The translations under genes and the position numbers were made by a program. A stretch of DNA of 64,000 bases from Flaviaestuariibacter sp. (GTDB lineage: Bacteria; Bacteroidota; Bacteroidia; Chitinophagales; Chitinophagaceae), in assembly GCA_025963645.1 (NCBI GenBank), contig JAOQAI010000017.1:186001-250000 (forward strand). Reading direction: 5' to 3'. The notes beneath the pieces are model-generated. The model was not told the origin of the DNA and did no database searches. It worked only from the letters and a program-made list of their open reading frames with translations. Position 1 is the first letter of the stretch, and every line of letters starts with the position of its first letter. Positions 6,451 to 26,526 of the stretch are shown here, piece after piece.

Positions 6451-6624
6451 TCACCTCACCCCCGCCTCTCCTGAAGGAGAGGAGCTTCTACACACAATAG
6501 CCCACTTATTCAACTATACCTAAAAGTTCTAAAAGTTTTTATACCAGGGTTTTCAATGTAATGATAATGAATGTAGTAGCGTGGGCTGTTGTTCCCTATC
6601 CTTAAAAGAGAGGGTTAGGGTAAG
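6451..6624. repeat. MITE-like intergenic element with outer and inner inverted repeats
   Basis: Outer arms CTCACCCCCGCCTCTCCTGAAGGAGAGG versus revcomp of the right end CTTACCCTAACCCTCTCTTTTAAGGATAGGG; inner arms ACAATAGCCCAC and GTGGGCTGTTGT (11/12 complementary). Confidence 0.6.
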
Positions 6625-6625
6625 A

Positions 6626-8026
6626 TCACTGTCTTTCATACGCACCCAGGTCGGGCAGCCCTACCGGGCGGCCATTGCCATCGAGGTCAAGGTTTATACC
6701 TGTAGTCACTCCTTTGTTAACAGCCGGTGAAGCCGCTTTCAAGCGGAAGTTATAAAACCGCCCAGAGATATTGATGCTATCGAAACCCGGTGACTGATTG
6801 TTGAGGATGCCTGCGGTGGTGACACCCGCCGCGGTTGGTGCATTCCGCACCCGCCACAGCACCGCATCGAAGACCACGTTGAAGGCCGTGTTGCCCTGTT
6901 TGGCTACCACCACTTCGTCTGCAACGATACCATTGTCCTCGCCCCAAAAAATACAGTTGCGGAAGGTGGCCGTCAGCGGCGCCGTAACCCCCTGCTGTAA
7001 GTAATTGGCCAGGAAAAGCACCGGGTCGCGATGCTGGATAAAGGCATTGGAATAAGTGGCAACCGTACAATGCGTGAAATTATAAGTGCCGCCTTTTACC
7101 AGCACGAGGTTCTTGCCACAATTGCTCACTAATAAATTGCGGGCGGTGATACTGGTATTGATGCCGATCAAGCCCGCATCGTACGCATTATCAATAACCG
7201 TTTCGTTGAGGGTCAATTTAGTACCCACACTTTGTTCTGCCACCACAATGCCCTGGTAGGCATTCTTGATAATCGCATAGTTCAATACATTGTTGCGGCT
7301 GGTGTTGGTAAAGATCAAACCGGGGTAGCCCGCAGGGTAATTCCTATAGGGTTCATCTAACCGGTCGCTGGCAAAGACCACCCGTGTACTGTCCCAGCCT
7401 TCGCCCATCACCTTCAGCGAGCCATTGACAATAAAAGGCGCATCGGCATGCATGAAAACCTTCACGCCTTTATTGATATTGAGTGTGGCCGTCGTATCCA
7501 CCGTCACCCCGCCCAGGATCACGTAGGGCAGATCATTATTCCATATTTCATTGGTACGAATGACGCGGTTGCGAAAGAAGTGGGCGTTCTGTCCGTAGGC
7601 ATCCAACTGCACATATTCGGTATTGCCATTGTAATTAATGGCGATGCTATCGCGAACCACAAAAGGCAGATTGCCGGCAGCCGGGTTGATGGTGACCGTT
7701 ACAAAAATGTAAACGCTGTCATCAGCAGCTATATCAATATTATTGACAACTGGTCCGGGAGTGCCGTCTACATTTATTTTGAATGGGGAAGCCGCACCGC
7801 CACCCAAACGGATAGAAGAAACACGAATGCCTTTGTTGTTGTCGTTGAAGATCTTGATGACACCCGAGACGGAACCGGTAGTGGTGAATACCGTATCGAA
7901 ATGCAGCGAATCAATACCGGTGCGAAGCCGTGCATCGGGGCTGTCCGTGAAGCCTTCTTTGCGACAGGAAAATAATATTGGCCCAATAAGGAATAAAAAG
8001 AAAAGACTTCGCCACCACTGTTTCAT
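6626..8026 (-). CDS. Lipoprotein, probable right-handed beta-helix
   Basis: Start chosen at MKQWWRSLFFLFLIGPILFSC (lipobox); repeated TLNINKGVKVFMHADAPF.. style; C-terminal LDGNGRPVGLPDLGAYE. Confidence 0.8.
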   Translation of the reverse strand: MKQWWRSLFFLFLIGPILFSCRKEGFTDSPDARLRTGIDSLHFDTVFTTTGSVSGVIKIFNDNNKGIRVSSIRLGGGAASPFKINVDGTPGPVVNNIDIAADDSVYIFVTVTINPAAGNLPFVVRDSIAINYNGNTEYVQLDAYGQNAHFFRNRVIRTNEIWNNDLPYVILGGVTVDTTATLNINKGVKVFMHADAPFIVNGSLKVMGEGWDSTRVVFASDRLDEPYRNYPAGYPGLIFTNTSRNNVLNYAIIKNAYQGIVVAEQSVGTKLTLNETVIDNAYDAGLIGINTSITARNLLVSNCGKNLVLVKGGTYNFTHCTVATYSNAFIQHRDPVLFLANYLQQGVTAPLTATFRNCIFWGEDNGIVADEVVVAKQGNTAFNVVFDAVLWRVRNAPTAAGVTTAGILNNQSPGFDSINISGRFYNFRLKAASPAVNKGVTTGINLDLDGNGRPVGLPDLGAYERQ

Positions 8027-24882: not shown

Positions 24883-26526
24883 ATGAAAAAGAAAATCTCC
24901 GCAGCGCTGCTTTCTGTTTTTTATAAAGACGGACTGGAGCCGCTGGTACGTCAATTAAGCAGCCAGGGCACGACGCTTTACTCTACCGGCGGCACACAAG
25001 CTTTTATTGAAGGACTGGGCATTGAAGTAATTCCTGTTGAAAGCCTGACCTCTTATCCTTCGATCTTGGGTGGCCGAGTAAAAACCTTGCACCCCCTGGT
25101 ATTTGGTGGCATCCTGGGCAAGCGGGCTGATGCCATGCATTTGAACGATATGCTGGAGTATGGCATCCCGGAGATAGACCTGGTAGTGGTTGATCTGTAT
25201 CCCTTTCAAGAGACGGTAGCACAAACAAACGATGAAGCGCAGATCATAGAAAAGATCGACATTGGTGGTCCTTCGATGATACGGGCAGCCGCCAAGAACT
25301 TCAGCGATGTCGTAGTGATCGCTTCAAAAGACGACTATAGCGGCTTGGTGGAGACACTGCAAGCGCAAGAGGGCGAAACAACACTGGAACAACGCAAAGC
25401 CTACGCAGCCAAAGCCTTCCAGGTAGTGGCGGATTATGATATTGCCATTACGAATTACTTCAGTGCCGACACACCGCTTACCGTGTTTGGAAAAGAGCAG
25501 CAAACGCCGCTGCGCTATGGCGAGAACCCGCACCAAAAAGCGGCTTTCTTTGGTGATCTTTCGCAATGCTTTACACAGCTACACGGCAAGGAGATCAGCT
25601 ATAATAATCTGGTAGATATTGATGCAGCGGTTGAATTGATAAGGGATGCAGCCCCCTCCGGCTTCCCCGGCGGGGGAGAGCCCCAGGCACAAGGCCAGCT
25701 TAGCGGCGACCCTGCCATAAATACAAGTGCGTCGCAAAGCGGGCCAGGTGCGGTTGGTGGTCCTTCCTACCGGGAAGGGTCGGGGATGGGCTCGGCCGTC
25801 TTTGCCATCATCAAACACACCAACCCTTGTGGTGTAGCCAGCCGGTCAACGGTGGCGGAGGCGTGGACAGCCGCATTGGCATCAGACCCTGAAAGTGCTT
25901 TTGGTGGTGTATTGGTTTGTAATGGAACAATTGATGTAGCTACTGCAACAGCCATCAACGAAATCTTTTTTGAAGTGCTGTTAGCGCCTTCTTTTGAGGA
26001 AGAGGCCTTGAGTATTTTGAAGTCCAGGAAGAATCGTATTCTATTACAAATGAAGGAAAAAGCCTTTGCTTCAAAAGTCTACAAAAGCCTGTTGAACGGC
26101 ACCTTAGTGCAGGATAAGGATAACAGCAATTATGAAAGGTGGGAAGAGGTCGGGGGCAAAGAATCCGGTGCGCAGAAAGACGATCTGGGGTTTGCCAATC
26201 TTATCTGCAAGCATCTAAAAAGCAATGCTATTGCCTTGGTAAAGGATGGACAGTTGATTGGTAAAGGCTGCGGCCAAACGAGCCGCATTGATGCCTTGCG
26301 CCAGGCGCTGGAAAAAGCAAGACAATTCAATTTTGACCTAACCGGCGCCGTCATGGCCAGTGATGCGTTCTTTCCATTTAATGATTGTGTGCAACTCGGG
26401 TATGAAGCCGGCATCACTGCCTTTATACAGCCCGGCGGCTCCATCCGCGACAAGGACAGCATAGACTATTGCAAAGAACACGGTTTGGCAATGGTGTTAA
26501 CAGGAACCAGGCATTTCAGACACTAG
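24883..26526 (+). CDS. purH: Bifunctional AICAR formyltransferase/IMP cyclohydrolase carrying an in-frame insertion
   Basis: Start chosen at MKKKISAALLSVFYKDGLEPLVRQL; GGRVKTLHPLVFGGIL; RYGENPHQKAAFF; IIKHTNPCGVASR; extra low-complexity segment between VELIRD and VFAIIKHTN. Confidence 0.95.
   Translation: MKKKISAALLSVFYKDGLEPLVRQLSSQGTTLYSTGGTQAFIEGLGIEVIPVESLTSYPSILGGRVKTLHPLVFGGILGKRADAMHLNDMLEYGIPEIDLVVVDLYPFQETVAQTNDEAQIIEKIDIGGPSMIRAAAKNFSDVVVIASKDDYSGLVETLQAQEGETTLEQRKAYAAKAFQVVADYDIAITNYFSADTPLTVFGKEQQTPLRYGENPHQKAAFFGDLSQCFTQLHGKEISYNNLVDIDAAVELIRDAAPSGFPGGGEPQAQGQLSGDPAINTSASQSGPGAVGGPSYREGSGMGSAVFAIIKHTNPCGVASRSTVAEAWTAALASDPESAFGGVLVCNGTIDVATATAINEIFFEVLLAPSFEEEALSILKSRKNRILLQMKEKAFASKVYKSLLNGTLVQDKDNSNYERWEEVGGKESGAQKDDLGFANLICKHLKSNAIALVKDGQLIGKGCGQTSRIDALRQALEKARQFNFDLTGAVMASDAFFPFNDCVQLGYEAGITAFIQPGGSIRDKDSIDYCKEHGLAMVLTGTRHFRH
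25649..25792. repeat. Palindromic MITE-like insertion translated within purH
   Basis: Imperfect outer arms AGCCCCCTCCGGCTTCCCCGGCGGGGGAG and ...CCTACCGGGAAGGGTCGGGGATGGGCT; inner stem GGCCAGCTTAGCGGCGAC / GTCGCAAAGCGGGCC. Confidence 0.65.

Follow-up and report, generated by a model that had tools for sequence, protein, structure and literature searches.

A palindromic element translated in frame within purH of a Flaviaestuariibacter genome, and its apparent kinship with DUF559 nuclease elements

How does a purH gene come to code for about 45 residues that most congeners lack, in a reading frame that is otherwise undisturbed? The gene lies in a stretch of 64,000 nucleotides, hereafter the window, that belongs to contig C21 of a 2.57-Mb, 63%-complete assembly, and the nearest named relatives of its product are Chitinophagaceae PurH proteins. 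An earlier, sequence-only reading attributed the extra residues to a mobile intergenic palindrome inserted at 25649-25792. The translation it quoted is exact, and the purH ORF is open through the insert; the end of the element stands as proposed, and its start is shifted by one base. The resulting 143-bp element, 25650-25792, starts with AGCCCCC, ends with GATGGGCT and is read in the purH frame. The features of the locus are as follows.

24883-26526, + strand: purH (AICAR transformylase/IMP cyclohydrolase), the host gene, 547 codons, with the reading frame unbroken across the insert (ORF; Pfam MGS and AICARFT_IMPCHas)
25650-25792, + strand: MITE-like palindromic element, 143 bp, translation APSGFPGGGEPQAQGQLSGDPAINTSASQSGPGAVGGPSYREGSGMG (copies elsewhere in the genome; purH site of congeners mostly empty or short)
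25650-25653, + strand: outer stem, 5' strand, pairing with 25789-25792 (consensus structure of 11 copies)
25662-25678, + strand: 5'-arm hairpin CTTCCCCGGCGGGGGAG (consensus structure with compensatory changes)
25694-25744, + strand: central stem-loop GCCAGC ... GCGGGC, the conserved internal sequence of the family (alignment and structure)
25762-25778, + strand: 3'-arm hairpin CCTTCCTACCGGGAAGG (consensus structure)
25771-25792, - strand: end of the 3' arm, 22 nt identical to the terminal repeat of the DUF559 element in the metH-like gene of genome G013
25789-25792, + strand: outer stem, 3' strand (consensus structure)

Alignment with congeners bore out the expectation that PurH proteins are nearly continuous at this site. 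In 16 of the 17 readable genomes, 0-13 extra residues are found there, and the PurH protein of genome G012 harbours a different palindromic insert of about 27 residues at the same position. If the element is removed in silico from the purH frame, 24 residues remain, compared with about 26 in congeners, and hence its exact junction is uncertain. In an AlphaFold model built from 29 PurH sequences, most of the protein has pLDDT values near 90; the exception is mainly residues 260-302, the insert, which fall below 50. The insert is located between a helix and the strand that leads to the KHTNPCG motif, and the model predicts it to be a disordered ('floppy') loop.

We then considered the palindromic structure. 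Folded as RNA, positions 25640-25805 form one long imperfect hairpin (-85.8 kcal/mol, z = -2.8 relative to dinucleotide shuffles), and one of 200 shuffled sequences folds as well. As GC-rich shuffles also fold well, fold energy alone is modest evidence. An alignment of 11 copies, built by sequence, yielded a consensus in which an outer stem encloses one hairpin per arm and a stem at the centre; 93% of the cells are paired, and 10 of the 26 pairs show double-sided changes. Its covariation score exceeds those of all 500 shuffles and of all slid controls, and both types of controls are also lower in paired cells. The fold and the covarying consensus thus substantiate the imperfect inverted arms and inner stem described from the sequence. 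A search of Rfam at the purH insert returned no match to an intron or to a known structured RNA, and both were rejected on this ground.

The earlier reading would have been refuted had the genome held no other copies of the sequence, but copies do exist. BLAST searches of the same genome with the purH element revealed one full-length copy, 80% identical, and several partial ones. Their host genes include those for a DNA methylase (identified by its DPACGSGAFL motif, without a Pfam match) and a protein with an M23 domain, as well as acsA, the tryptophan dioxygenase gene, uvrA and nadB. Each of these intragenic copies is in frame and devoid of stop codons, and most have the same reading frame and orientation. 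In congeners, the same palindrome family is found in frame in genes for an Lhr-type helicase and a UnbV/FG-GAP protein, in hsdR, in nadE and in others. The idea of a mobile palindrome inserted in frame is therefore retained, but not its description as intergenic, since the copies detected in this genome are mostly intragenic. The purH element is open in only two of its six frames, one of them being that used by purH, and in-frame survival therefore acts as a filter. By DNA searches, the purH element has a narrow spread, in 9 of the 19 genomes of the genus and in 6 of the 119 genomes sampled in the family. As the copies within one genome are diverged (80% identity at best), movement of the element is old or slow.

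Two other palindromic loci deserve mention. In hsdR of genome G013 (L050), a second, smaller hairpin element is nested in the palindromic insert, and the frame is still kept. In the window, positions 6452-6628 form an intergenic, degenerate palindrome with arms of a second family (CACCTCACCCCCGCCTCTCC ... AGAGAGGGTTAGGGTAAG); because its arm-to-arm alignment is weak (score 15), we regard it only as a likely old copy.

With its 143 bp, imperfect inverted arms, covarying pairs and dispersed copies, the purH element resembles classical prokaryotic MITEs such as QMITE and ERIC, which are likewise small and multicopy, with inverted terminal repeats and without a transposase gene. However, no parent insertion sequence was found, the proposed parent encoding DUF559 instead; no target duplication was detected, and the copies are mostly intragenic in their own genome. 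By analogy, the closest precedent is the Rickettsia palindromic elements. According to a review, these are palindromic repeats of about 150 bp, inserted in frame in unrelated genes where they add a peptide, with several families per genome (PMC10969869). The comparison in principle with those elements, made when an in-frame insertion in an essential-type gene was first suggested, is supported. The likeness drawn here is one of mode, in that unrelated genes have a palindromic repeat in their translated frame, and the purH element is not classed among the Rickettsia families. The host phylum differs, being Bacteroidota (Chitinophagaceae) here, and the present elements have larger, nuclease-bearing relatives, whereas the passages of the review consulted name no mobilizing enzyme for the Rickettsia elements (PMC10969869).

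The first lead to those relatives was a weak match of the purH element in its own genome, beside an ispG gene that contains a DUF559 domain. A search of the genus with PF04480 (DUF559) gave matches in 16 of 19 genomes. In many cases the domain is embedded in a long ORF, including leuS, ispG and tryptophan dioxygenase, metH-like, M23 and recQ-like genes; the metH-like and recQ-like hosts were named from sequence and not by Pfam. The elements are mostly 450-600 bp long. Local alignment of the 350-bp flanks, with a null distribution drawn from DNA of the same genus, showed inverted repeats straddling DUF559 above the 99% null level at 21 of the 29 loci of the genus, six of which exceed the highest null value (63). 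Relative to a first null drawn from other genomes (maximum 32), 19 of 29 loci stand out, among which L071 is a simple repeat. An example is the perfect 40-bp pair of the leuS element in genome G005. Pfam scans of the DUF559 fusions revealed no intein domain. No target-site duplication was evident at 16 DUF559 elements, a comparison made at species-level divergence, where its power is low, and without a clean empty site from a close strain.

The genome that carries the purH element has full-length DUF559 copies in leuS, in ispG and between mreB and mreC. The last of these (L180, contig C13) is intergenic, with 36-bp near-perfect terminal repeats (ACCTCACCCTAACCCTC...), and is a candidate autonomous copy. 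The LeuRS of the same genome (L181, contig C10) has two inserts: its editing domain holds the DUF559 form, and a palindrome of the CCTCATCCC type is found elsewhere, after GPEGEGPLANIPEW. The LeuRS of genome G018 also has an insert at this second site, after GPEGEGPLANIPEW.

The DUF559 domains of these longer relatives match the Pfam profile with 105-122 bits, for a curated cut-off of 20.6. D66, E77, D79 and other residues are invariant in an alignment of 12 sequences, and residues of the catalytic type are kept. Fused domains retain the invariant residues, with a dN/dS ratio of 0.08 vs 0.15 in the host part for the one close pair that was measurable. Both profile and fold comparisons identify NGO0050 (3hrl) and the catalytic domain of the homing endonuclease I-Bth0305I (3r3p; profile E 1.8e-8, Foldseek TM 0.79) as the nearest solved structures, with a weaker relationship to Vsr. 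By these criteria, the DUF559 domain is a putative nuclease of the PD-(D/E)XK, Vsr/homing-endonuclease-like type.

We looked for specific associations between the palindromes and the DUF559 forms. The halves of the purH element match the flanks of DUF559 at 10 of 29 loci (p <= 0.01). These matches concern 8 of the 10 loci of the dioxygenase/ispG/metH/M23 group (including L082, absent from the DUF559 tree and assigned by sequence) vs 2 of the 19 others (Fisher p about 4e-4), and the leuS and recQ elements have arms of the CCTCACCCC type instead. Such group-specific arms are the pattern expected if each nuclease lineage acts on its own arms; it would also arise if arms and gene had been inherited together as a single unit. 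In addition, strong DUF559 matches are present in all nine genomes that have the palindrome vs 5 of the 10 that do not (p about 0.02).

The two forms also occupy the same sites. The site in the leuS editing domain is empty in 13 genomes, holds a palindrome of the same family in G001 and a small insert in G011, and contains the DUF559 form in the purH-element genome (G000), G005, G008 and G018. At both the tryptophan dioxygenase and the M23 sites, a palindrome is found in the purH-element genome, the DUF559 form in congeners (two and three, respectively), and nothing in other genomes. Palindrome-type inserts occupy the uvrA site in five genomes, and at least 12 have it empty; the acsA site is occupied by a palindrome in the purH-element genome only. 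In the DUF559 tree, the leuS copy of that genome groups with the recQ copy of G001 (100/98), and a single clade of leuS copies is rejected (AU p = 0.005); thus, either copies changed host gene or the leuS site was invaded repeatedly. A single clade of metH copies is not rejected (AU p = 0.07). The branches are long and the copies found are never near-identical, so that there has been no recent burst of DUF559 elements.

What the genome comparisons themselves display is that copies are dispersed, that insertion is in frame, that sites exist both occupied and empty, and that arms are common with DUF559 elements. By these shared arms and shared sites, the palindrome appears to be related to DUF559 elements. 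We consider it reasonably probable that the purH insert is a MITE-like form derived from a DUF559 nuclease element, non-autonomous and able to persist in genes thanks to one open frame and tolerant loops. The full-length DUF559 copies of the genome could supply the nuclease in trans. The enzyme would nick or cut DNA at the hairpin arms or at the target, and repair or replication would then copy the element into the new site. Insertions into genes would persist only in tolerant surface loops, and there only if the open frame of the element coincides with that of the host. The ribosome would read through the element, which would stay in the protein as a disordered loop. We infer that the DUF559 nuclease drives the movement and that the insert is translated without splicing or bypass. 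The derivation could have gone either way, the palindrome arising from a DUF559 element or a palindrome having gained DUF559.

DUF559 could also be mere cargo of palindromes whose movement is due to something else. As the genome assembly is 63% complete, it may lack other transposases. An enzyme such as a RAYT/IS200-type Y1 transposase, or a classical IS transposase, would then mobilize the palindromes, with DUF559 as a repeated passenger. In REPIN/RAYT systems (REPtrons, TIRtrons), two inverted hairpin arms form the non-autonomous unit, and the gene is flanked by the same repeats (PMC3733652, PMC3116915). The elements described here share the paired inverted hairpin arms and the existence of a gene-bearing form with the same repeats; moreover, their hairpins and the lack of evident target duplications are reminiscent of REP/RAYT and IS200/IS605 systems, and Y1_Tnp genes are present in 14 of 19 congeners. 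However, the palindrome-rich genome itself has no Y1_Tnp match in its 63%-complete assembly, and the RAYT genes sampled in congeners (L272-L277) are flanked by other palindromes, in several cases of the CCGTAGG / CCGTAGGGAC type. The palindromes are associated with a PD-(D/E)XK nuclease and not with a Y1 tyrosine (HUH) transposase carrying the same repeats, their copies lie in frame inside genes, and their association with DUF559 is strong, group-specific and also seen on plasmids of Cyanobacteriota, Deinococcota and Pseudomonadota. We therefore discarded a RAYT-driven REPIN as such, and we judge mobilization by any other enzyme to be rather unlikely. The Y1 transposase genes of the genus, with their own flanking palindromes, represent a separate REPIN-like system.

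Homing rather than transposition, in which the DUF559 nuclease would cut an empty allele into which the filled one is copied by recombination, in the manner of a homing endonuclease gene or of an unspliced intein, the palindromes being nuclease-less remnants at homing sites, is an unlikely alternative as well. It would fit the structural kinship with I-Bth0305I, the filling of the same sites in several species (leuS, dioxygenase and M23) and the occupation of the leuS site by different DUF559 lineages. As in homing endonuclease genes and inteins (I-Bth0305I, EDxHD/Vsr-like), a nuclease of related fold is found in conserved host genes at recurrent sites. In contrast with those systems, no intron or intein was detected and the insert is apparently kept in the protein, hairpin inverted repeats flank the nuclease, and short relatives without nuclease exist. 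Each genome also has many insertion sites with similar arms, suggestive of a transposition-like spread, and homing alone makes no new sites.

Removal of the insert by RNA splicing, translational bypassing or protein splicing could be envisaged given the strong RNA structure, but it is very improbable: the intragenic copies examined keep the frame and are stop-free, which would be unneeded if they were removed, and no Rfam intron matched the purH insert. The marks of inteins, a Cys or Ser at the start and His-Asn at the end, were not seen in the inserts. Finally, an ordinary lineage-specific Gly/Pro-rich loop that is palindromic by chance has a negligible probability, even though PurH loop length varies somewhat among Bacteroidota, since it is ruled out by the diverged in-frame DNA copies that this genome has in unrelated genes (one of them full-length), by covarying structure, and by occupied and empty sites.

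Returning to the DUF559 elements as the proposed source of the purH insert, we determined how far they extend. DUF559 is present in 79 of the 149 Bacteroidota genomes sampled, often fused to HsdR, HsdM, methylases, MetH-like proteins or LeuRS. Ten plasmid loci were taken from Cyanobacteriota, Deinococcota and Pseudomonadota; at six of these, strong inverted repeats straddle the domain (score 41-104). The pattern of DUF559 with arms is thus wider than the purH element itself. On a plasmid of Pseudanabaena galeata (L314), a CDS of about 1620 codons contains an in-frame DUF559 between long near-perfect CCCTCACCCCCAGCCCC inverted repeats, which is the same arrangement in Cyanobacteriota. The ycjD gene of Escherichia coli K-12 is a DUF559 gene, and a CCCTCACCCCAACCCTCTCCC repeat is found just 3' of it in the strain examined. 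At the sapF-ycjD-fabI locus (L324 / L321), 3368 of 5426 E. coli genomes match most of the ycjD region, and ycjD is polymorphic among strains. Two strains devoid of ycjD both carry an efflux operon at its position; hence, there is no clean empty site, and the comparison gave no target duplication.

From the sampled Bacteroidota genomes, the ten plasmid loci and E. coli ycjD, we tentatively propose, at somewhat less than even confidence, that DUF559 nucleases with hairpin-bearing C-rich inverted repeats may form a widespread, unrecognized class of bacterial mobile elements that insert in frame into conserved genes and are translated unspliced. Common C-rich palindromes of bacteria, for instance CCTCACCCC..CCCTCTCC and AGCCCCCT..CCCCC, would be non-autonomous derivatives, and the purH insert would be a member of the class. 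In the open-access literature, without bioRxiv or most subscription papers, we found no report linking DUF559 to such repeats, although work on Rickettsia palindromic elements and on REP sequences exists.

The way of life of the Rickettsia palindromic elements is now seen in Bacteroidota, with a candidate enzyme, for which the Rickettsia review consulted offers no counterpart. With this candidate, and with single sites that occur empty, with the short form and with the full one, the mechanism is therefore testable, and E. coli ycjD is a ready laboratory model for DUF559. More generally, odd Pro/Gly-rich loops in annotated proteins call for caution, as they can be mobile DNA. These data suggest what DUF559 may do and where many anonymous C-rich repeats may come from. 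If the proposal is correct, an element similar to homing nucleases would persist unspliced in leuS, ispG, uvrA and purH as a tolerable loop.
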